A DNA stretch of 54,765 nucleotides from a virus: IMG/VR virus record IMGVR_UViG_3300025769_000149, positions 1 through 54,765 of that record. One strand, 5' to 3'. The notes beneath the pieces were generated by a model, which saw nothing but the letters and a program-made list of their open reading frames with translations, was not told where the DNA came from and made no database searches. A program made the position numbers and the translations under genes. Below, piece after piece: positions 2,997-53,687 of the stretch (position 1 is the first letter of the stretch; each line of letters opens with the position of its first letter).

Positions 2997-4568
2997 ATGG
3001 AATACAACTTACCTAGTGAGTTGATCAAACGTTTAGACTTTGGTCAAACCGCTAAAGAAAAAGTAATAGCTGGCGTACATAAGCTAGCACAAGCCGTAAA
3101 GAGCACATTAGGCGCATCGGGTAAATGCGTAATATACGAGGATGCTCGCGGCCGACCGGTGATCACAAAAGACGGAGTAACCGTTGCCCAAAGCGTAGTC
3201 TTATATGATCCGGTTGAAAACATAGGTGCTACCCTTATTAAAGAAGCAGCTAACAATACAGTGAAAGAAGCAGGCGACGGTACCACTACGGCTACCGTCC
3301 TTGCTGAAGCACTACTTAAAGAGGTAAACAAAGAAAAATATGCTGATGAATCTATTAGAGAAATCAAAGCAGGTATTAGTTCAGGCTTGGAGAAAGTTGT
3401 TAAACATCTTGAAGACAGGGCTATTGAAGTTGAAGGGAGCATGCTTAGCGCTGTTAGCGCGATTAGTTGCAATAATGATAAAGCCCTTGGAAGCGTTATT
3501 GCAGAGGCTTACGAAAAAGTAGGTAAGCATGGTGTCGTACTTATGGAGGAAGGTGACACCGAAGACACGCATGTGGAGTTAGTTGACGGAGTGCAGGTTG
3601 ATTGCGGGCTTACGTCTCCGCACTTTGTCACTAACACTGATAAGCATTTAGCAGAACTAGATAATCCCTACGTATTAGTAGTATCTAGTTTAATACCTAA
3701 CGTACGCAAAATACAAAACGTGTTAGAGCATGTCATCAAGACTGGACGAGCTTTACTTATCATAGCTCCAGTAGATCAGCAAGTGAAAGCCGCGTTGATG
3801 ATGAACAAGGTTAAAGGCAATATCAAAGTTAATATTATTGACCTACCTGGCTTTGGACCTACTAGAAAAGATGCTACAGAAGATTTAGCTATATTAACAG
3901 GCGCTACTATTATTAACGAAGAACTAGGTGATGATCTAGATCTTATTAGTGTAGATCATTTAGGAGAAGTAGAATACGCCGTTACTAGCGATACTAATAC
4001 AGTTATAACATTAGATGGTGTAACTGAGGATATAGAAAATAGGATTAAAGAGGTTAATAACAAAATCGCTGAAGAGAAAAACGGTTTTATTAAGAAAAAG
4101 CTAGAACAACGTCTAGCGACTCTTTCAGGTTCAGTAGGTATTGTTAAAGTAGGTGCTGCTTCAAAAGTAGAGCTTAAGGAAAAGAAAGATAGAGTCGAAG
4201 ACGCTATATATGCTACAAAGGCCGCGCTGCGAGAAGGTATTATTCCTGGTGGAGGTTCGGCGTTATGGTGGGCTTCTAAAAAAATTAAACCCACTAACGT
4301 GGGTGAGGAGATTCTCCTTGAGGCTATTAAGTCTCCAATGCTGACTATCCTAGATAACGCAGGTCTTACTAATGCTAAGTGTGATGGTAAAGACTATTGC
4401 GGTATTGATGTTATATCTGGTAAATGTACAGATATGCTAGACGTAGGAATAGTAGATCCGGTTTTGGTAACAAAATCGGCGCTGAAAAATGCTGTATCAG
4501 TAGTATCAACTATTATATCAGCTGATTGTGTAATTTCAAACGCTAGAGCAGATGAGAGCAATCAATGA
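2997..4568 (+). CDS. groEL: Phage-encoded chaperonin GroEL (Hsp60)
   Basis: Predicted 523 aa group I chaperonin, an ATP-driven folding cage for substrate proteins such as capsid or tail subunits. The ATP-site motifs are intact: TKDG with Asp59 (E. coli Asp52), GDGTTT at 93-98 (Asp87 equivalent) and the DAIYATKAAL segment with Asp402 (Asp398 equivalent) followed by PGGGSAL. The protein lacks the Gly/Met-rich C-terminal tail of bacterial GroEL and ends ARADESNQ. The P-loop-like segment reads ASGKC rather than the usual GPKGR, a notable divergence. The gene overlaps groES by 17 bases. It is divergent enough to be a long-established phage gene rather than a recent host capture (inference). Confidence 0.95.
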   Translation: MEYNLPSELIKRLDFGQTAKEKVIAGVHKLAQAVKSTLGASGKCVIYEDARGRPVITKDGVTVAQSVVLYDPVENIGATLIKEAANNTVKEAGDGTTTATVLAEALLKEVNKEKYADESIREIKAGISSGLEKVVKHLEDRAIEVEGSMLSAVSAISCNNDKALGSVIAEAYEKVGKHGVVLMEEGDTEDTHVELVDGVQVDCGLTSPHFVTNTDKHLAELDNPYVLVVSSLIPNVRKIQNVLEHVIKTGRALLIIAPVDQQVKAALMMNKVKGNIKVNIIDLPGFGPTRKDATEDLAILTGATIINEELGDDLDLISVDHLGEVEYAVTSDTNTVITLDGVTEDIENRIKEVNNKIAEEKNGFIKKKLEQRLATLSGSVGIVKVGAASKVELKEKKDRVEDAIYATKAALREGIIPGGGSALWWASKKIKPTNVGEEILLEAIKSPMLTILDNAGLTNAKCDGKDYCGIDVISGKCTDMLDVGIVDPVLVTKSALKNAVSVVSTIISADCVISNARADESNQ

Positions 4569-41000: not shown

Positions 41001-42033
41001 AAATACACCAATGCAATACAACAGAATCATGAAGCGCGCTGCGCAAGACATGGTTAATGGTAGAGGTGATCCAAAAGAACATATTTCAAAAATTATCTAC
41101 TACGGTGCTGTACAAAGCATGATATTCTATGGTCTTCAAACAGCGCTATTTAGTGTTATGTTTGGTGATGACGAGGAAGAAGACGATTTAGATACTAAAA
41201 AGGAAAGAGTAGTTAACGGTATGTTAGATAGCATACTGCGTGGAGCAGGTATTGCAGGCGCTGTAGTATCTACAATAAAGAACACTATACTAGAGCATCT
41301 TGATCAAAAGGCAAAAGAAGACGATGATATATACTTTACAGAGTATAATGAAGCTGACGTACTTATAGAAGCCCTTAATCTCTCGCCACCAATAGGTATT
41401 AAAGCTAGAAAGTTAGTTAGTGGTATGCGTACTTGGGAGTACAATCAGGACGTAATAGATCACATGTCTAAAACTGATATCGACAATCCTATTTACGACG
41501 CTTCATTCTCTGTAACAGAGGCTGTAACTAACATACCCTTAAGTAGACTTCACAGCAAATTTGAGAATCTTAGAGAAGCTATGGACTCTGATAACGAAAC
41601 CTGGAAACGTGTTGCCATGTTCTTAGGTTGGAACAAGTGGAGTTTTGGTATTAAAAACCAAGATGTGGTAGATGCCAAGGGTGAAATTAAAGCAATCAAA
41701 GACGTAGAGAAGGAAGAAAGAAGAGAGCAGAAGAAAGTAGAAAGAGAAATAGAAAAAGCTGCTGAAGAAGAAGCTGAGATAGAAGATAACATGCTTGATC
41801 AGGACGAGCAGAGAGAAGAGGGTGCTGAAGAAGTTCAGTGCGCGGCTGTTAGTGGATCTGGCAAACGTTGCTCTAACATGGCTTTACCTGGTAAAAACTT
41901 TTGCACTATACACGAGCAGGTTGAACAACGTGAAGACGGTAAAGAAGTTCAGTGCTCACATATAAAATCAAACGGCGAGCGCTGTAAAATGAAAACAAAA
42001 AATAACTCAGGAAAATGTTACTACCACGATTAA
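32089..42033 (+). CDS. Giant polyvalent ejection-type protein, 3314 aa
   Basis: Predicted 3314 aa. The N-terminal 130 residues are acidic and disordered. A hydrophobic segment lies near 860-905. A metallopeptidase motif HEGTH is at 1431-1435, a HAD-fold domain at about 2352-2515 (DFDDTL from Asp2356, TAR, and a VDDAM end), and a conserved-looking virion region at about 2560-3200 with a membrane-like helix near 3002-3026. The C-terminus has two zinc-binding units at 3251-3275 and 3289-3313, each C-x9-C-x10-C-x2-H. Phage proteins with many enzymatic domains are known as polyvalent proteins (Iyer and colleagues) and are injected with DNA. A short FSRS motif recurs at 1579, 2343 and 2519. No polymerase or lytic motif is seen. 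Confidence 0.85.
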   Translation: MNPELERLVQEKIDAAKAANEGVLSEEAKADIMKFVQQYKEDEQIKKDQDSQPGPGGESTTSGQPDASQSTTEVSTDDSSLEQEDEDQVVVDGDSEEEVIIEDQNQEEEVVVEEQQDPPKIISDRGDGWEYKRENGIYYTKKAGASSWTKTSGDVANTIAKEMFPEYGEFVDKVDADYVEGDGADQPGIFEGIEDKFTQDLKTNIKREYEGESNYSSSTVAGDFKGTAAFPNLQASHSNDNRYYVEHAAVFRPDGGYLTISDDDETGIDRTVDNVTEWYNTGDNSQIASNPIWSLFERKDNGNADPAFGGSEAIFGMAKNKAGEEYGYQFNDVEGMNEALSVSGYTIEPIYPVQYMSKNIHGEYMLDQWSTNNRYNQQKGRHGVVIRGYRVLKDGEVVLGEAPEGFEGYNPNPLGEDEANEIGGTMNNNYAGVSSAEVQNYFWNLAKDFHEENGFGYDDEGNPTVNFLQKSREYMVGREAEVLSGIDAELSDFEDKYIITRDDPSTLDIDETEYSDTATRLAFKNNDILTKDVVGVILEGSDLPQEEVDLISNYFNEPIYYTTKTEKNIKGRTFVETKETLASDWQKQRLDNVLESDMYKSLSPEGQEVVRNSLTAGSEMIDIMVGAAVDEQVARRKSILLEREIANSPDANIVRGVIDEKTAPHNIQAKINAFSARQSTIENHLKQKSDTLATTINGALADVAEAGYGYHSEGNVEDGTFRLIVDMPEDGSEEDRKVFQKRIDDLYGQYETINSDYMNGLRGEMLSYLEFVNETQDNAATLATVSKEFDERDVQWKDWMDAWKGMWWGTTAFFGSEEGMAGLQRIDDRGEVYRTMLTGSEAWAIGQKGEYASRTFTQQLPNLLVAVGTGGVTSTGLKALGASANVIKYGSSATTGFGVFGTGSAGQKKKQIYDMRTAGEEAQKQLTNLEAQYKNGDVSTAEYLVQKGQLEKTIALGDIDDTELYTAMASALVIEGGVTTFFGTAINSQKLLKAFGGEVDDVLRTATNTWYQNVGRGIFATAKETGSEVIEESLIFFGDQMAGSLILGQDADYSGALDVVMSSIISAGPTQGSGNVYNAFTSTMATSDTRAVYNDVMTNLDMITASMERAATPAEKAALKVDYLQEVGRLSNLQAGLELDVLVGGSKTLKTTLEANKALLKIHQEAGIKGSDSQATIDKKLKAYRATLSGGDLKSFDQRLSSAQNRISQTHAEVAQAYEDGNVVEDVYGEEGLKVQERLSKKPGWEQLSNREKAVAVHTEMQRKARNNRINSHRKDEKLMDYVELQVYGGKFSESGRKNRNRKAEDAIIDRYATDLQVRKGWTTMQAREGNVSLESILADPSVAGNFEVIQADSNEDLMAKLKQEFDNGNITEDEYNALRDDMQDMFKSSTKDGVEFGAIVGGKYITMADTQQVQDALDNGEMLQGTVALHEGTHAIDVLSGMNAEGQMENFAVNLQQGLAADENLRWVDQSARDRVNALNLEPGSQEYYDEYTKSVQDILGNKYYKSEFNAAKKAAGRTSLRNWYRMSTGKGFTIKTGKDALNFMVSNIEAFRNGEVSKLTKSRIEGTLDGETSKKRFSRSGQEASERVQALYEDQGVGAAMDIIDEFGARVNKLVNKYQDVPGFDRQLLTDEINTGRRGILDMILEYDQDANPGVPVAAYINKFLDRRAIEAANRILKTDFESDVTEARGIAAEETADVDIQTRTREGIRLGDRFGERGQSMHDSVVERVKNGDIDTDGKSYKTLGNALVDETQVMFGVSPKPGNLTKGDVANAQNFILKHADTLLAMLPEGTDSSGKSTGVNKVLLESLYTKGSRVSASKTGSKAGLAAQVKRGDITKQEFLEIFGITPAGTPNVSDRNTSARVKALIDQTGKAITNQAAKEALIQNGEEGAFAFEDGKSKVLYSKTLLDTSTKYPKIAQAVLNRLHRPEGLDIIKSLSGNVKGAFNSLFTEDDIKAMAMDQFGKAGNREIKLVTERLNKIGTEIQALHDQYSKYLDIQDQTDFVMIDTPIEEVILGHVINDSTEHRQYYKTIIGAENELDMRNPEHRDLARNATGKLAAKFSPEFNERFLVPGLSAATNPKRGYFVDGVDDTRLLVGSKKGETGKYSKPPSGYMKGKLDNDGVNKIKNNKAVVKAQQENNQAFRQVVEELRNMVANGEITLGQATAILQVMNANQKGLTRASAILDFVPSKKFKGPATLEHMTPALQVNLQALRYIATGDVDQKTMFDQTMDNYRLAYLPEKYDKIVNLFYKSTVPYWQTPDMSPLGRYYGPQLLAAGFDLELDMMSTGVTVGGDAGIDIKNWRKANTGRKKALGNLAANTDIATDQKTVNDARQAVKFSRSGKVKGMTAWDFDDTLATTKSNVIFNKDGETKIVSAEDFAKEGAGLVADGWIPDFSEFNKVTGGKPGPMFDKAMRRAKKYGTEDTYILTARAPEAAPAIKQFLDALGLNIPLKNITGLGNSTGEAKARWLLDKHAQGYNDIAFVDDAMQNIDAVNKVFNQFDIKGKVELAKTKFSRSAPTEFSKILSEGEKDLNDDFNIVLEESKDVGKEKTFSTAKAKQRGKGKGKFKFFLPPSAEDFKGLIYPFLGKGKVGEQHHKWFKENLFDPYSKGMKRVNAIKQEVSSDVRALKRNNKDVTKKLKKKVPGTDFTYEQAIRVYNWNKAGLDVPGLSNADLKALNKAVNDNPTIKLFAEGLAQIQSKPGADVDVKEDWLAGTITSDMVELIDQSRDMLLQEFNDNADVVFSEQNLNKIEAVFGSRHREAIEDILYRMKTGSTRNFGSNRILNDFMNWVNGSVGTTMFFNARSAVLQMISNVNFINWHDNNPLKAAKAFANQKQYWGDVAMIFNSPTLKQRRGGIGTDLNAAELLKDLEKSDNKMKVVTSHLLQLGFTPTQIADSLAIATGGATMYRNRIQTYLDEGMSQNEAESKAFEDMMDIAEETQQSTRPDKISQQQASPLGKLILAFQNTPMQYNRIMKRAAQDMVNGRGDPKEHISKIIYYGAVQSMIFYGLQTALFSVMFGDDEEEDDLDTKKERVVNGMLDSILRGAGIAGAVVSTIKNTILEHLDQKAKEDDDIYFTEYNEADVLIEALNLSPPIGIKARKLVSGMRTWEYNQDVIDHMSKTDIDNPIYDASFSVTEAVTNIPLSRLHSKFENLREAMDSDNETWKRVAMFLGWNKWSFGIKNQDVVDAKGEIKAIKDVEKEERREQKKVEREIEKAAEEEAEIEDNMLDQDEQREEGAEEVQCAAVSGSGKRCSNMALPGKNFCTIHEQVEQREDGKEVQCSHIKSNGERCKMKTKNNSGKCYYHD

Positions 42034-43058
42034 GTTTATTATTAACCTTACTATTTAGCTGTACACTACTACAAGCTCAAGAACTAAAGAAAGCATTTAA
42101 GTTTTCTACGTTCTACGCAGCTGTTAACGGAGGTAACTCCGTGTCGGATCAGACTATATACTCTGTTACTGATGGATTAACTCAAGAGACTATAGCGACT
42201 CCATTTGACTACAGTTTGTCTATGGGTGTACGTAAAATCGCTAGGTTTGGATACGAGAATAGAGCTAACGCTTTCTACGATGGAACAGAAACATCTTACT
42301 CTGCTGATGCTAATATAGGTAAGCGCAACGGTATAGAGTTTCTTGGAGAGGTTACATACGAAAGACAGCAAGGCCGGGAGTTCTTCAACCAGCACCACTT
42401 TTTTCGTTACATTGGAGATAAAGTTATGGCAAAAGTTGAATACCTTGAAGACGGGTTTGCAGACATCGAGTACTTCGAGGCCTCTCAAAGATATAGACTT
42501 AAGCTCGGTAAGAAGTTTTCTATCCACGCAGGAGTTGCTCAACGTATCTCAGAGCCCTATGGATATGATCCACTCGCTGAATGGAAACTTGCAAACGGAG
42601 ATATTCACTACACTTACCTCGCGCTTCAAGAAGGATATACTCACAACCTTACAACTGGAGAATATATGGCTCCAGACGGAACAGTTGTCGCTTCAAACAC
42701 TGAGGTCTGGGAAGCAGTCACTATCCCTGAAGTCTTATCTGAATACTCTGCTAGAAAAAGAAATGAACTTGCTCGCCAGTGGAATTACTCGGTGGTTGCC
42801 GGGTTCGACTTCTATCACTTTACAGAGGACTTCTGGTTCCACACTTGGGGAAATGTTATGCCCTACCATTACGACACAGGTGGGGAATATATGTATCACA
42901 ACACAGTGGACGGCCAGTGGCTTGACTACTCGGGCGGACTTATTTTCGGACACAGATTCAACAAACACATTGGAGTTTTTCTTGAAGGTAGATATAACAA
43001 ATACTGGAATAGGGAATGGTATAACTTTAAGTGTGGTGCAAACTATGTAATCTTTTAA
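42015..43058 (+). CDS. Phage-encoded outer-membrane beta-barrel protein
   Basis: Predicted 347 aa. A signal peptide (MLLPRLSLLLTLLFSCTLLQAQ, basic then hydrophobic and ending QAQ, 22 aa) precedes repeated amphipathic beta strands (IEFLGEVTYERQQ, SQRYRLKLGKKFSIHAGVAQR, QWNYSVVAGFDFYHFT, FNKHIGVFLEGRYNKY) and it ends in Phe, the outer-membrane barrel signature. Starts 19 bases inside the end of the giant gene. Codon use favours GGA, TTC, CTT/CTC and ATC, unlike the neighbouring genes, hinting at transfer or high expression. A receptor-masking, porin or adhesin role in the host envelope is inference; it could instead be displayed in a membrane-containing particle. Confidence 0.8.
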   Translation: MLLPRLSLLLTLLFSCTLLQAQELKKAFKFSTFYAAVNGGNSVSDQTIYSVTDGLTQETIATPFDYSLSMGVRKIARFGYENRANAFYDGTETSYSADANIGKRNGIEFLGEVTYERQQGREFFNQHHFFRYIGDKVMAKVEYLEDGFADIEYFEASQRYRLKLGKKFSIHAGVAQRISEPYGYDPLAEWKLANGDIHYTYLALQEGYTHNLTTGEYMAPDGTVVASNTEVWEAVTIPEVLSEYSARKRNELARQWNYSVVAGFDFYHFTEDFWFHTWGNVMPYHYDTGGEYMYHNTVDGQWLDYSGGLIFGHRFNKHIGVFLEGRYNKYWNREWYNFKCGANYVIF

Positions 43059-43517: not shown

Positions 43518-43799
43518 ATGGCAAAGCAAATAGGTGAGGATACTAAAGTAACATTAGACCTCAAGACAATAGGTATGGCATCAGCAGGTTTGGCTGCTTT
43601 AATTGGTATGTACTTTACACTACAAGCTGATATAGCTTTAGCAAAGGAATTACCTGAACCGCTACCTGCAGAAGTTACTCGTATGGAGTTTGATATGAAA
43701 GATCAATTGATTCGTCAAACTATTATGACCACACAAGAAGACGTGACTGAGATTAAGGACGACATGAAACGTATCGAAGAGAAAATAGATAACCTGTAA
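43518..43799 (+). CDS. Membrane-anchored coiled-coil protein
   Basis: Predicted 93 aa. A hydrophobic segment (about 18-36, GMASAGLAALIGMYFTLQA) follows a short polar start, and the C-terminal half is a heptad-rich coiled coil (EDVTEIKDDMKRIEEKIDNL). This is the layout of membrane-tethered accessory lysis or structural proteins. It is directly before the thioredoxin-like exported gene. Not recognised as a named family; a spanin- or holin-accessory role is speculative. Confidence 0.55.
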   Translation: MAKQIGEDTKVTLDLKTIGMASAGLAALIGMYFTLQADIALAKELPEPLPAEVTRMEFDMKDQLIRQTIMTTQEDVTEIKDDMKRIEEKIDNL

Positions 43800-43803
43800 T
43801 GAT

Positions 43804-44175
43804 ATGGAAACAGATACAATGAACTTTGGAACAGTGATTGCATACATATTCTTAATGTTATGTATGTTCGCAGCTGGTACAGCGCTTGGGCAGAACATGT
43901 GTAATAGTGATATTTGTGTTGTGCAGTTTAACGCTAGTTGGAACGAGAGCAATAGTGTAGATTATCTTGATGAACTCACTGATTGCAACGTTATGAACGT
44001 CAACATAGATGAAGGTACTTATCAATCTGATTACAAGATAGTTGTAGTGCCTACGATTATAGTATTTAACGGAGAAGAGGTTGAGAGGTTTCAAGCTAAT
44101 ATTATGATGCAAATGGATGCTACTAGGAAAGACGTGCAGAGTGTTGTCGATGAAATAATCTATAGCGATTTTTAA
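43804..44175 (+). CDS. Exported thioredoxin-like protein lacking CxxC
   Basis: Predicted 123 aa. An N-terminal hydrophobic segment (residues 7-28) ending ALGQN looks like a signal peptide or membrane anchor. The rest fits a thioredoxin core: ICVVQFNASWNES, an LTDCNVMNVNIDE strand, a cis-Pro strand KIVVVPTIIVFNGEEV and a C-terminal helix. The usual WCxxC active site is replaced by FNASWNESNS, so redox catalysis by the classical mechanism is unlikely. A binding or structural role in the periplasm or envelope is suggested. Stop overlaps the next ATG by one base. Confidence 0.65.
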   Translation: METDTMNFGTVIAYIFLMLCMFAAGTALGQNMCNSDICVVQFNASWNESNSVDYLDELTDCNVMNVNIDEGTYQSDYKIVVVPTIIVFNGEEVERFQANIMMQMDATRKDVQSVVDEIIYSDF

Positions 44176-44588
44176 TGGAGAAGTATATATACAAAGCTAA
44201 ACTAGAAAGAGTCGTTGACGGTGATACTATTGACGCTCTAATAGATTTAGGGTTTGATACGTGGGTGAAGAAGAGGATTAGATACAAAGGTATTGATACA
44301 TGGGAGTCGCGAACGAAAGATTTAGACGAAAAAAAATTAGGTCTCGCCGCAAAGGATCGCAACAAAGAGCTTTTGGAGTCAGTAAGTTCCAAACCAGGTT
44401 GCTTCAGATTAAGAAGTCACGGCGTAGGAAAGTACGGTAGAGTACTTGGTGAGATCTTTGTTAAAGATATAGAAGGAATAGAATATAATGTTAACCAAAC
44501 ATTGATAGACGAAGGCCATGCGTATGTTTACGATGGTGGTAAAAAGAAAATGTTTGTCAATAAAGAAAGTAAAAAGAACGTATTATGA
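44175..44588 (+). CDS. Staphylococcal nuclease-like protein
   Basis: Predicted 137 aa SNase/TNase-fold nuclease, a calcium-dependent DNA/RNA hydrolase. The active-site set is complete: DGDT with Asp15/Asp17 region, then Arg36, Asp41 and Glu44 in IRYKGIDTWESR (matching Arg35, Asp40, Glu43 of the S. aureus enzyme), and Arg89 in GKYGRVLGEIF (Arg87 equivalent). The NQTLIDEGHAYVYDGG end is typical. No signal peptide, so it is expected in the cytoplasm, perhaps for host DNA or RNA breakdown. Confidence 0.9.
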   Translation: MEKYIYKAKLERVVDGDTIDALIDLGFDTWVKKRIRYKGIDTWESRTKDLDEKKLGLAAKDRNKELLESVSSKPGCFRLRSHGVGKYGRVLGEIFVKDIEGIEYNVNQTLIDEGHAYVYDGGKKKMFVNKESKKNVL

Positions 44589-44734
44589 TTGATTGGATTA
44601 ATGGCTTTGATGCCGGAAACAAAAAGGAAAAGTATTTTTTAGAATTTAGATTAGGAACCCTAACTCTATTAGAGATTAAGTGGGAAGCTAAGAAGTTTAG
44701 GTTTATGATATTCAACTTAGGATTTGAAGTATGA
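44585..44734 (+). CDS. Mini-protein, 49 aa
   Basis: A 49-aa gene starting MIDWINGFDAGNKKEKYFLE with beta-like strands (LEFRLGTLTLLEIKW, KFRFMIFNLGFEV). It begins in the ATGA overlap with the SNase-like gene and ends in an ATGA overlap with the T9SS-cargo gene. The double 4-base coupling, with length a multiple of three and no internal stop, supports a real gene. Function unknown. Confidence 0.55.
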   Translation: MIDWINGFDAGNKKEKYFLEFRLGTLTLLEIKWEAKKFRFMIFNLGFEV

Positions 44735-47028
44735 AAAAGCTAGGTTACTTATTTGTAATACTATTTTGGTTATTAGCTAGTTCAGTATTAGGACAAGGTA
44801 GTTGGCTGGACATTACTGTACAGACAGATAACTATGCGGCTGAAACATCATGGGAGATATTAAACGAAGACGAAGAAGTTGTTGCTGTTAATCCTCCATA
44901 CCAGGACAATAGCTTATTAACTATAACAAAGTTTTTACCTGCTGGTGATTACCAGTTTGTAATGATGGACTCTTTTGGTGATGGTATATGCTGTGGCTTT
45001 GGCGAAGGTTTTTATAGACTGCACAACGCTTGCGGTTTAGATACAGCTAACTATGAGTTTGCTACCGCCGTTGACACTATAGACTTTACACTTAACCCTT
45101 GCTTACCGCTAGTACCAGGTTGCACTAATGATCTAGCGAACAACTATAACCCATGGGCCACTGTTGAAGATGGCACGTGTAACGTAATCGAGTGTGACTC
45201 AGCTGAGACGCTGGTGTCTATGGAGTTAACGTTAGACACTTGGCCTAACGAAACTGGTTTTACATTAGTTGATTTAGCTGTTGGTCAGTTTTACGAACAG
45301 GTGTTTCCTGGTGAGTACAATTTCGGTGACCAGCTCGTTACGTATACATACGACTTTTGTGTATCACTAGGTTTTGAGTTGATACTAGTAGATACGTTTG
45401 GTGATGGACTAAATGGTTCAGCATCAGGTGGTGAAGACGGAGCGTGTGTTATTACAGCTTGTGATAGTGTTATATGGGAGCTAGAAGATTTAGCGTTTGA
45501 AGAGTTTGACGGTGGCACAATGTACTCTGGTGCTATATTTACTGAGCCGTGTCCACCTGCACCTGATGTGCCTGGTTGCATGGACGACGATTATGTAGAT
45601 TATAACCCATTAGCTACAGTGCAAGACACCTGCGAAACTTTACACGTATGGGGTTGCACAAACCCTGAGGCATTTAACTACGATAGCTTAGCTACTATAT
45701 CAGATAACAATAGCCCTTGTGCTATTAACGTTACTATTGAAGACGATGGCGGTGATGGTTGGGGTAACTCAAAGCTAGGTATGATACAAGGTGATCAACA
45801 GTGGTTGTTTACTATGGGCCCTGGTTCGTTTGAGCAGTCATGGACTATCGACTTAGACTCTGACGCAGAGGTAAAGCTTTATTACTTTCAACAAGGTAAT
45901 GCTCAGCAATCAGCTCAAGAGTTAGCGTTCCAGACTCTACATAACTCTGTATTGATTACTAACGAAGCTGGTGATACATTATTATCTGAGGGTACAAACC
46001 CTTTCTTTGATAACGGACAGGGTGCGTTACAACCGTTTGACGAACCTAACTGGACTACATATAGCTTTGTACCTTACTGTGGTGATAGCTGTGAGCCTTT
46101 TAGCTACGGATGTACAGATATGATGGCGCAGAATTACAATGCTGATGTAAACACGGAGGATGGTAGCTGCTACTATCAAGCTGGTTGTACTCAAGCAGGT
46201 TACTTAGAATATTATACACAAGGATATGAAGCTGACTTTGATAACGGTAGTTGTAATACTCTCGCGGTATTTGGCTGCATGGATAGCGAGGCTTTTAACT
46301 ACAACCCAGAGGCAAATGTAGATAACGAAGGTTGTATACCTGTAGTACTAGGCTGCACGAACCCACTTGCCTTTAACTATAACTCGGCTGCTAATACCGA
46401 TGATGATAGCTGTATACCCTTCATCTACGGTTGCACAGACGCAATGATGTTTAACTATGATCCAGAAGCTAACGCTGAAGATGGTAGCTGTATTCCTTAC
46501 ATTTATGGTTGTACTGATGTGTACGCCTTTAATTATGATCCGTTGGCTAATACTGACAATGGCTCGTGCGAGGAAGTGGTGGTCGACTGTATGGACCCGC
46601 TAGCCTACAACTACAACGAACTTGCAAACGAACCTGCAGACAATTGTTTATACGACGCTGGTTGTGTAACAGGACCTGGTGAACCTTACTGGTTAAACGA
46701 TATGTGTTATGCTTGGGTTATTCAAGCGGATCCATTCTGCTGTGATGAAGCGTGGGATGCTACGTGTCAAGATACATATAACTACTGTTCATCTACAGGT
46801 ATAGAATCCATATTAGCTGGTGAAGACTTAGTTGTCTACCCAAACCCAGTTGGTAACGTGTTAAACATAAATCAAAAAGTTGACATAGACGTGATCGATT
46901 CAAACGGACGTATCATAGTATCTAAAACAAATACGAACGCGATAGACGCGTCCCTATGGCCTCCAGGAATGTATATGGTACGCATTGTTTGGAACGGTCG
47001 CGTTGTTGTCAAGAAGATTATCAAATGA
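44731..47028 (+). CDS. Phage-encoded T9SS cargo with Cys-rich repeats
   Basis: Predicted 765 aa. A signal peptide (MKKLGYLFVILFWLLASSVL, then GQ) is followed by short acidic DxxGDG segments (DSFGDGICCGFGEG, DTFGDGLNGS, DDGGDGWGNS) and about ten Cys-flanked repeats of the form GCT(D/N)xxAxNYxPxAxxxDGSC (calcium-binding-like). The C-terminal about 70 residues form a type IX secretion sorting domain: YPNP at 703-706, then LNI, SNGRIIV, and GMYMVRIVWNG. It should be exported by the Sec system, crossed by the host T9SS and anchored on the cell surface. The T9SS exists only in Bacteroidetes. Its role during infection (surface masking, adhesion) is inference. Confidence 0.85.
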   Translation: MKKLGYLFVILFWLLASSVLGQGSWLDITVQTDNYAAETSWEILNEDEEVVAVNPPYQDNSLLTITKFLPAGDYQFVMMDSFGDGICCGFGEGFYRLHNACGLDTANYEFATAVDTIDFTLNPCLPLVPGCTNDLANNYNPWATVEDGTCNVIECDSAETLVSMELTLDTWPNETGFTLVDLAVGQFYEQVFPGEYNFGDQLVTYTYDFCVSLGFELILVDTFGDGLNGSASGGEDGACVITACDSVIWELEDLAFEEFDGGTMYSGAIFTEPCPPAPDVPGCMDDDYVDYNPLATVQDTCETLHVWGCTNPEAFNYDSLATISDNNSPCAINVTIEDDGGDGWGNSKLGMIQGDQQWLFTMGPGSFEQSWTIDLDSDAEVKLYYFQQGNAQQSAQELAFQTLHNSVLITNEAGDTLLSEGTNPFFDNGQGALQPFDEPNWTTYSFVPYCGDSCEPFSYGCTDMMAQNYNADVNTEDGSCYYQAGCTQAGYLEYYTQGYEADFDNGSCNTLAVFGCMDSEAFNYNPEANVDNEGCIPVVLGCTNPLAFNYNSAANTDDDSCIPFIYGCTDAMMFNYDPEANAEDGSCIPYIYGCTDVYAFNYDPLANTDNGSCEEVVVDCMDPLAYNYNELANEPADNCLYDAGCVTGPGEPYWLNDMCYAWVIQADPFCCDEAWDATCQDTYNYCSSTGIESILAGEDLVVYPNPVGNVLNINQKVDIDVIDSNGRIIVSKTNTNAIDASLWPPGMYMVRIVWNGRVVVKKIIK

Positions 47029-47939
47029 TTAAGTGGATAGGTCAACATATATTTGACTTCATAGCTAGGTTTCGTAGTGATGTATATATTGAAAGTGACA
47101 TATATATTGAAAGTAATCTTAGAATAGATAACGCAACTATAGGCAGCGTACAAACATCTTTAGAATCATTTGCAGATAACGACACTAGCTTAATGACGTC
47201 AGCTGCTATTGACGATCGTATTAATGCTGCTGGTGGTGGCGTAAGCGTATCTGATAGCACCGCTAATACAGACTTTCCCGTAGTGTTTCACGACGAGTCA
47301 AACAATCTACACGATGACACAGCTGCGTTTACATATAATCCTAGTACTGGTAACGCAGTTATCCCTAAGATACAGACAGCTGGAAACATAGAACTAGGTC
47401 ACGCGTCAGATACTACTATAGCTAGATCTGCGGCTGGTAGAGTTACTATTGAAGGAGAAGAAATAGTTACTACTAGAACACCAGGTTTAACCAGTGCCGC
47501 AGCTGGTATACCATGCGCGATAATGCAGGTTAGAAGAACTATAACACAGGCTGAAGCTAACTCTATGCATTCAACACCTATTGAAATAGTTCCAGCTCAA
47601 GGAGCCAATACTGTCATTATACCTTTAGGAGGTATGGTAAGGATAGATAGAGCTACTACTCAAAGTAATAGTGCTACTGACTGGAACATGCACTACGCTG
47701 ATCAGGAACCAGGTGCTTACCTTACCACGTCAATTCATCACATAAGAAGATTTATGTACAACGAAGCTGGTGATAGAATATATCACATAACACCTGGTCT
47801 TGCGTCCACAGAAGTAGCTCAAAATTTAACTGACGACGTTAACAAAGCTGTAGAGGTTAGCTTTGATTCAGCGGCAACAACAAATGCTTTTACAAGCGTG
47901 GATGTGTATTTAACTTATTACGTAATATCAATAGCATAA
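47025..47939 (+). CDS. Tail fibre-like protein
   Basis: About 304 aa from ATG at 47025, which overlaps the previous stop as ATGA; an upstream ATG at 46956 would place the start inside that gene and is rejected. N-terminal MIKWIGQHIFDFIARFRSDV is a start I associate with marine phage tail fibres. A tandem 18-base repeat at 47079-47114 encodes DVYIES/DIYIES. The body is beta-rich, Gly/Ser/Thr-rich, with a parallel-strand character and a C-terminal beta end. Consistent with a trimeric receptor-contacting fibre. Confidence 0.65.
   Translation: MIKWIGQHIFDFIARFRSDVYIESDIYIESNLRIDNATIGSVQTSLESFADNDTSLMTSAAIDDRINAAGGGVSVSDSTANTDFPVVFHDESNNLHDDTAAFTYNPSTGNAVIPKIQTAGNIELGHASDTTIARSAAGRVTIEGEEIVTTRTPGLTSAAAGIPCAIMQVRRTITQAEANSMHSTPIEIVPAQGANTVIIPLGGMVRIDRATTQSNSATDWNMHYADQEPGAYLTTSIHHIRRFMYNEAGDRIYHITPGLASTEVAQNLTDDVNKAVEVSFDSAATTNAFTSVDVYLTYYVISIA
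47079..47114 (+). repeat. Tandem 18-base repeat in fibre gene
   Basis: Two consecutive 18-base units (47079-47096 and 47097-47114) differ at two positions and encode DVYIES and DIYIES. The insertion lengthens a beta segment by six residues. It may reflect slippage or recombination in a receptor-facing gene. Confidence 0.7.
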
Positions 47940-52576: not shown

Positions 52577-53391
52577 AACGTATCTTTTACAAATGTCCCG
52601 TTAATCATCTTACCCGTGCGCTTACTGATAACGTCGTATGCTTGATCAATACAAAGCTCAATCGACGTGTCACCTAATCTAGCTAAGTTTGTAAGCACAA
52701 CAACCATATCACCAATAGCGTCTATAAACTCAGCTTCATCTTGCTTTAATATAGCTCTGCCAAGCTCACCAGCTTCTTCCATGAGTTTTAAGTATTGAGT
52801 TTTAGTATCACCTTTGTCATACAAACCTCGTTCATCTGCCCACGTTCTGATTAAATCAAAACGACTATGAAGATGCTCACGTTTATGGCCACTCATGTTT
52901 AACGCGCCCGTAGTTGTTCTACAGCATTCGTTGTTATCAAAGTACCTAGCAAACGCCTTATTATATACGTAGCACCTATCGTTATTATACATAGATGTTT
53001 TTACGTTTTCCATAATCCACCTAATAGAGTCAGGGTCAATACAGCACCTACCGTGATCTGTCTCCCAACTCATACCGATCTCATCCATAAGCCTACCTTT
53101 AAGCTTATTTACTGGGCATGGAAATGTAGTTGTTTGTTCTGTTATGTTTATATTCATTGAATTTAATTCTTGTTTTATAGGGTTTAAATCTTTATACAGT
53201 TTACGATCTACTTTGTAGCCATATTCTTTTTGTAGCTCTATCTCCTTGTGAGATATATAACAAATGTCGTCGGACATGTCTAGTATTTCATATTCATCTT
53301 CTGTATAACCTTGCTGACGTGTAACTCTTTCCTCCAGGTTATTTGTTACACCAATCTTTTTACCTGGTATGTGGTATATACAATATGTCAT
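52573..53391 (-). CDS. GIY-YIG-like / MazG fusion protein
   Basis: Predicted 272 aa. Residues 1-70 resemble a reduced GIY-YIG module: CIYHIPGKKIGVTNNLEERV, then a conserved-like DDICYISHKEIELQKEYGYK segment. Residues 71-190 have Cys/His/Asn-rich parts (GRCCIDPDSIRW, ARYFDNNECC) that are not assigned. Residues 195-240 form a MazG-like domain: EEAGE at 205-209 and EFIDAIGD at 221-228, an EExxE plus ExxD arrangement. It probably couples nuclease-like binding to nucleotide-pool control. Whether the first domain is catalytically active is uncertain. Confidence 0.7.
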   Translation of the reverse strand: MTYCIYHIPGKKIGVTNNLEERVTRQQGYTEDEYEILDMSDDICYISHKEIELQKEYGYKVDRKLYKDLNPIKQELNSMNINITEQTTTFPCPVNKLKGRLMDEIGMSWETDHGRCCIDPDSIRWIMENVKTSMYNNDRCYVYNKAFARYFDNNECCRTTTGALNMSGHKREHLHSRFDLIRTWADERGLYDKGDTKTQYLKLMEEAGELGRAILKQDEAEFIDAIGDMVVVLTNLARLGDTSIELCIDQAYDVISKRTGKMINGTFVKDTL

Positions 53392-53687
53392 TTTGCTTTA
53401 CTAATAGATATAACATCTACCGACTTCATGTTGACACTACAAACCTTATTGTTTTTTGTAGGAAACGTGTGGTGCATATGGCTACCGTCCTTAAAAAAAA
53501 CCGTAACGTCTCTAGTTTTTTCTACACCGTCAAGAAAGTGTAAGCAAACAGCATTATTACCCTCTGGTTTTACAAAGGTTTTTTCATCCGCTAGTGTTAT
53601 ACTGACGTGAGTAGTATCCTGCGCTAAACAACAGCTCACTGTAATCCAGAATAAAACAACGAATATGTATGTTAGTTTATTTTTCAT
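53388..53687 (-). CDS. Secreted or envelope small protein
   Basis: Predicted 99 aa with a signal peptide (MKNKLTYIFVVLFWITVSCC, then LAQD), of the Bacteroidetes type ending in LAQ. The mature part is a small beta domain (HVSITLADEKTFVKPEGNNA, VTVFFKDGSHMHHTFP). It sits in a nucleotide-metabolism operon, overlapping neighbours by four bases at each end. Its context is unexpected for an exported protein; the function is unknown. A Cys pair near the cleavage site also permits lipid attachment. Confidence 0.65.
   Translation of the reverse strand: MKNKLTYIFVVLFWITVSCCLAQDTTHVSITLADEKTFVKPEGNNAVCLHFLDGVEKTRDVTVFFKDGSHMHHTFPTKNNKVCSVNMKSVDVISISKAK

Follow-up and report, generated by a model that had tools for sequence, protein, structure and literature searches.

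A phage gene for a type IX secretion cargo is probably part of a four-gene envelope module of marine Bacteroidota phages

We read a viral gene for a type IX secretion system (T9SS) cargo protein as one of four genes of a T9SS-exported phage envelope module, and, leaving the purpose of the module aside, we put the probability of this reading at roughly 0.72. The gene lies on the plus strand at positions 44731 to 47028 of the window, that is, of the whole stretch of DNA that was analyzed, an IMG/VR virus record that is 54,765 bases long. The other module members are a predicted outer-membrane beta-barrel (OMP), a small coiled-coil protein (TMcc) and an exported thioredoxin-fold protein (TRX).

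The cargo protein and its sorting domain

The cargo gene encodes 765 residues and was assigned on the basis of the ORF list, matches to PF18962 and TIGR04183, viral relatives and dN/dS. From N- to C-terminus, the protein has a signal peptide, DSFGDGICC domains, Cys-flanked acidic repeats, a pre-tail domain and a sorting domain. A first-pass annotation of this DNA had proposed a signal peptide, about ten Cys-flanked acidic repeats and a C-terminal T9SS sorting domain, all of which were borne out. By inspection, the protein begins with a hydrophobic, Sec-type signal peptide (MKKLGYLFVILFWLLASSVLG, followed by Q). Sequence and homologs place it at residues 1-21 (44731 to 44793, plus strand), with predicted cleavage before Gln22, a residue that is invariant in cargo homologs (n=25). 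A hydrophobic N-terminal stretch is present in 107 of 108 distinct intact cargo relatives, and a cleavage-like A-x-A/G/S-Q motif in 101 of them.

The N-terminal part of the cargo contains two or three beta domains of the DSFGDGICC/DTFGDG type. A regular expression found nine Cys-flanked repeats of the type GCTDPxAFNYNPxANxDxGSC between 45118 and 46665 (plus strand); these are not contiguous, but lie at residues 130-155, 282-301, 308-330, 460-486 and 515-645. The protein is rich in cysteine and strongly acidic, with 37 Cys and 119 D+E residues against only 14 K+R. Such Cys-flanked repeats are not confined to T9SS cargo: a virion protein of cyanophage S-CAM3 has similar ones. GCTDPxAxNY-type repeats were also seen in large phage proteins without a signal peptide at two other loci (L080:3105-7610 and L084:5169-7616), and the repeat is therefore also used inside phage structural-type proteins. 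Homolog alignment defines a conserved pre-tail domain rich in WD and CC at residues 641-695 (46651 to 46815, plus strand; consensus PYWLND.CYAWVI..DP.CC...WD..C...Y.YC). This domain is the junction at which two kinds of C-terminus, type A and a short tail discussed below, are swapped among cargo homologs.

The C-terminus of the window cargo, residues 702-765 (46834 to 47025, plus strand), is a true T9SS sorting domain of type A, with an Ig-like fold. Both sorting-domain profiles were matched far above their cut-offs: PF18962 at 44.9 bits against 27 in Pfam (E 1.5e-11, residues 702-764), and TIGR04183 at 47.3 bits against 23 in NCBIfam, with 53.1 bits in the genome search. In Foldseek, the AlphaFold2 model of the domain aligns to solved sorting domains, with TM scores by target length of 0.71 to 8glk_D (a NucA substrate-bound T9SS complex), 0.56 to 7pq4 (RgpB) and 0.59-0.61 to 8qb1 (mirolase). 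The sorting domain is the faster to diverge, with YPNP, the G-R core, GxY and KKIIK retained.

The sorting domain was the sole credible match when the whole cargo was searched by sequence against the PDB, and no solved relative was found for the other domains. No family for the cargo was found in PHROGs, nor was any enzyme or carbohydrate-binding family matched in Pfam, NCBIfam or PHROGs. As a whole, the AlphaFold2 model of the cargo is of low confidence (pTM 0.27), and for this reason we do not read function from the protein outside the sorting domain; its structural matches to the calcium-binding adhesin SiiE and to a glucan-binding SGBP are weak and of low probability. One relative (L036:9746-12052) is chimeric, its N-terminal part swapped and its C-terminal part near-identical to that of the window cargo, and thus the cargo recombines module-wise. 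At four loci (L029, L031, L032 and L035), a smaller second sorting-domain protein of 411-521 residues lies directly behind the cargo, as at L035:12076-13641. Outside the module, a 99-residue protein on the minus strand of the window (53388 to 53687) has a signal peptide resembling that of the cargo; no family match was found for it.

Phage origin of the cargo gene

The contig carries genes for a terminase (phrog_6681), a virion protein (phrog_13704), a holin (phrog_3427) and an M15 endolysin, together with a weak match to a P22-like portal, and the earlier description of 44731 to 47028 as a phage gene is well supported by them. Genes for a GroEL-like chaperonin, thymidylate synthase and ribonucleotide reductase are also present. 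The chaperonin gene (Cpn60_TCP1) is at 2997 to 4568 of the window, and a GroEL/GroES pair is annotated in Flavobacterium elemo phages too. Relatives of the large terminase subunit (TerL) number 87 records in the phage collection, from phages of Flavobacterium, Cellulophaga, Tenacibaculum and Maribacter and from one unassigned virus, and the host group of the window phage is, judging by these relatives, likely to be the Flavobacteriia.

Could the cargo gene instead be host DNA, acquired accidentally or joined to the contig by misassembly? The cargo does resemble many host secreted proteins. Relatives of the cargo, however, are found at 57 viral loci, four of them from other metagenomes and 93-94% identical across all 765 residues, and the module has phage genes on both sides in viral contigs of many metagenomes. 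The cargo gene is under strong purifying selection: dN/dS is about 0.05-0.15, with about 0.06 for the cargo between the window and its close relatives and similarly low values in the neighboring genes. Its stop codon shares four bases (ATGA) with the ATG of the next phage gene, a tail-type gene (MIKWIGQHIFDFIARFRSDVYI...) at 47025 to 47939 on the plus strand, homologs of which adjoin the cargo in other phages; given the overlap, the two are probably translationally coupled. In addition, the barrel is found in just four genome contigs among 84,980 species, all four in metagenome-assembled genomes (MAGs) and two with long phage-type neighbors. An origin in host contamination or misassembly is hardly credible, and for the cargo family we exclude it on the viral loci, the ATGA overlap, the phage neighbors and the rarity in genomes. 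The two MAGs with module contigs that were tested have six PorP-family genes apiece; of these, G093 was tested for SprA and has it. In one case (L142), the module is on a contig assigned to an archaeal MAG, Nitrosopelagicus, almost surely by a binning error.

The four-gene module and its possible purposes

OMP, TMcc and TRX accompany the cargo in its relatives, although sequence identity in terminase and virion proteins is often no higher than 20-50%. An alignment of OMP detected at least 570 viral contigs, and TRX at least 576. Among loci with complete 4.5-kb flanks, all four genes are present at 44 of 44 anchored on OMP and at 40 of 40 anchored on TRX; with identical barrels removed, each of the 64 modules with full flanks holds the four genes on one strand. 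These sets come from the best 80 matches of each scan and extend to a barrel identity of about 60%, so divergent barrels without a cargo could exist. MW202828 and Flavobacterium phage elemoF, two complete or cultured TerL relatives without the sorting domain, have no barrel either. The cargo, OMP, TMcc and TRX thus apparently form an obligate module, a point that the first-pass annotation missed.

Three gene orders occur: CARGO-OMP-TMcc-TRX (29 modules), OMP-TMcc-TRX-CARGO (28) and TMcc-TRX-CARGO-OMP (7). All are cyclic rotations of the first, which suggests spread via tandem duplication and loss, or via a circular form, and the block is sited at different places among the phage genomes. The rotated orders are illustrated by L014, L085 and the window. 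In the window phage, a DUF6321 gene (PF19846; 43062 to 43346, plus strand) lies between OMP and TMcc, and a gene for an SNase-like nuclease (PF00565, phrog_452; 44175 to 44588, plus strand) is inserted in the module; such a nuclease is near 9 of the 64 modules.

OMP (42015 to 43058, plus strand; 347 residues) has a signal peptide, 12 predicted strands with a conserved insert of about 75 residues between strands 7 and 8, and a C-terminal F; the last residue is F, L, I or Y in 118 of 132 homologs. Its AlphaFold2 model is of modest confidence (pLDDT 68), and all 50 PDB matches to this model at E<=0.001 are outer-membrane barrels, by which OMP is, as modeled, an outer-membrane beta-barrel. By sequence, the barrel found nothing in the PDB and no convincing family match in Pfam, NCBIfam or PHROGs. 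We considered the possibility that OMP is a relative of PorP/SprF and rejected it, as no such model matched and hhalign against six PorP/SprF proteins gave a probability of 1.9%. The arrangement does recall the SprB/SprF pairs, in which a T9SS surface protein gene stands beside that for an outer-membrane barrel thought to anchor the protein (PMC10202324). There, however, the cargo is type B and the barrel belongs to the PorP/SprF family, whereas the phage cargo ends in a type A domain or a short tail and no relation of the phage barrel to PorP/SprF could be detected; neither a type B sorting domain nor a PorP/SprF-family barrel was found.

TMcc (43518 to 43799, plus strand; 93 residues) is present in every module by alignment and shows, by inspection, one transmembrane segment near the N-terminus and a charged coiled coil at the C-terminus. 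TRX (43804 to 44175, plus strand) was recognized through alignment and Pfam, with a thioredoxin fold that is weakly matched: the homolog at L049 reaches 22.3 bits against a Thioredoxin cut-off of 23.5. The alignment shows N-x-x-N with both N invariant, and since these two asparagines replace the CxxC active site of an active oxidoreductase, redox activity would not be expected. In PHROGs, TMcc and TRX have only weak matches. Topology predicts that OMP would be placed in the outer membrane, TRX in the periplasm and TMcc in the inner membrane.

From the gene content, obligate co-occurrence, domain assignments and selection, we infer how the module may work. The four proteins would be made together with the phage late genes; structural or packaging genes are near 47 of the 64 modules, a position from which late expression is likely. 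The cargo would pass through Sec to the periplasm and, guided by its sorting domain, leave through the host SprA/PorV T9SS; once on the cell surface, it would be cut by PorU and then anchored or released. Export by SprA/PorV with processing by PorU is the established T9SS mechanism (PMC10202324), and export of the phage cargo to the surface is likely. Meanwhile OMP would sit in the outer membrane as a beta-barrel, the redox-dead TRX in the periplasm, and TMcc, anchored in the inner membrane, beneath them. Jointly occupying the inner membrane, periplasm, outer membrane and surface, the four proteins would remodel the surface of the infected cell. They probably have such a joint envelope function; they may form one complex, but need not contact one another.

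As to purpose, we tentatively suggest receptor masking or the exclusion of further phages, two of the roles proposed in the first-pass annotation, which also named changes in aggregation. Further adsorption would be blocked, whether of competing phages or of progeny re-binding to dying cells and debris.

The module might otherwise replace spanins and breach the outer membrane at lysis, with holin and endolysin acting first and the module then destabilizing the outer membrane so that progeny escape. Its four products are predicted envelope proteins distributed from the inner membrane to the surface, the modules are mostly among late genes, an M15 endolysin follows the module immediately in some phages (L024, L049-L051), and no spanin was recognized within the window. 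In the window, however, holin and endolysin lie elsewhere; a holin or M15 gene is near only 22 of the 64 modules, about what chance would give for a 10-kb stretch of a 50-kb genome; and an adhesin-like secreted repeat protein would be an odd spanin. A breach is thus an unlikely purpose, and without constant linkage to holin or M15 we rejected a lysis cassette as the main reading.

In hosts, proteins that combine repeats of this kind with a sorting domain tend to be surface adhesins or enzymes. By analogy, the cargo could attach an infected cell to particles, to polysaccharide or to other cells, bringing progeny into contact with new hosts or feeding the host in the manner of an auxiliary gene. 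The weak matches to SiiE and SGBP noted above point in this direction, and the T9SS cargoes of Cryophage include glycoside hydrolases (PMC7468147). Against this stand the lack of any match to an enzyme or carbohydrate-binding family and the constancy of the module, as one would not expect an adhesin that is dispensable to keep these three partners in 64 of 64 modules. We regard adhesion or nutrition as rather less plausible than a role at lysis.

Several Flavobacterium phages require gliding or T9SS surface proteins to infect. It is thus conceivable that the cargo, whose sorting domain is genuine, competes for or blocks the host translocon and so keeps T9SS-dependent phage receptors and gliding adhesins off the surface. 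The sorting domain, however, is under purifying selection like an ordinary functional signal, with no sign of a defective or stalling version, and jamming leaves the barrel, TRX and TMcc unexplained; we consider it improbable. The rest of the probability falls to purposes other than these and masking.

Lysogenic conversion was also considered. Phage-borne outer-membrane proteins are familiar from lambda Lom and the PA-2 porin Lc, which are single genes of temperate enterobacterial phages. They resemble OMP as phage-borne barrels that alter the host surface, but the present case is a set of four genes, and 30 module-bearing records, three of them near 120 kb, yielded no integrase. The module phages are therefore probably lytic, and we rejected lysogenic conversion.

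A second C-terminal tail and the relation to known systems

The 122 intact, distinct C-termini in the cargo family are either type A (98) or a short tail (24), with none that is neither. At the junction where type A would begin, the short tail adds about 40-50 residues (...ITDILGRPxK...NKLLFFIYDDGTVEKKI..). A scan of viral contigs with this tail confirmed 153 stretches, of which the best 80 are all on this cargo family. Among cellular genomes, it occurs in 57 of 148 Flavobacteriales genomes, at up to 46 copies per genome. Most of the host tails belong to proteins that have a signal peptide and, in some cases, an LRR, beta-lactamase or thioredoxin domain; in the examples examined the tails end 2-4 residues from the C-terminus. 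All 16 of the tail-rich genomes tested for SprA are positive, each with 25-64 type A cargoes. C-termini at L232-L247 and L087-L137 likewise show a tail of about 40 residues (ITDxLGRxxK...N.LLFYIYDDGTVEKK...) on many different signal-peptide proteins of small-genome Flavobacteriales.

No model for the short tail was found in Pfam or NCBIfam, and it differs in length from the T9SS types A, B and C of the literature (PMC10202324). We tried to recognize it as a remnant of type A; a D..GR core is common to both by eye, but hhalign gave 4.5%, which is not significant. Because the cargo family exchanges the two ends, the short tail may do the job of type A, for which the exchange is evidence but not proof. 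We thus propose the short tail as a candidate unmodeled T9SS sorting signal of marine Flavobacteriales.

A phage-encoded T9SS cargo is not new as such. T9SS-labeled cargo proteins of Cryophage were reported in 2020, with a hijack of the host system proposed, and T9SS sorting domains were reported in 2019 in cluster 2 of the BACON-repeat gut phages (PMC7468147, PMC6949934). The Cryophage proteins share type A sorting domains with the present cargo, but they comprise an endoglucanase, a GH39 and a PA14 protein, all encoded in variable islands, and we found no four-gene module described there. In the BACON phages, also phages of Bacteroidota, the sorting-domain proteins adjoin head genes; they differ in having BACON rather than GCTD repeats, a sorting domain being fused to one BACON ORF, and function was left open by the study (PMC6949934). 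The first-pass suggestion that such a cargo is not a standard phage strategy therefore needs narrowing: the cargo has precedents, while we found no description of its four-gene context. Nor did the open-access literature yield a description of the barrel or the short tail, which is weak evidence of novelty, since subscription papers and preprints were mostly outside its scope.

There is somewhat less than an even chance that the whole of a wider reading is correct, namely a widespread, undescribed envelope-spanning system of four phage proteins, one of them T9SS-exported, that hundreds of lytic marine Bacteroidota phages carry as a mobile block, together with a second, short sorting signal of about 40 residues (...TDILGRxxK...NxLLFYIYDDGTVEKK...) on dozens of proteins per small-genome marine Flavobacteriales. 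If so, a fixed four-gene kit with T9SS export would be a distinct route for taking over a Gram-negative surface, and it would account for a block of unknown genes that recurs in phages of marine Bacteroidota. The swapping of C-termini inside a single family amounts to a natural experiment pointing to an unmodeled T9SS sorting signal in marine bacteria, and if the short tail is confirmed, secretome predictions for those bacteria would overlook as many as tens of proteins in each genome.
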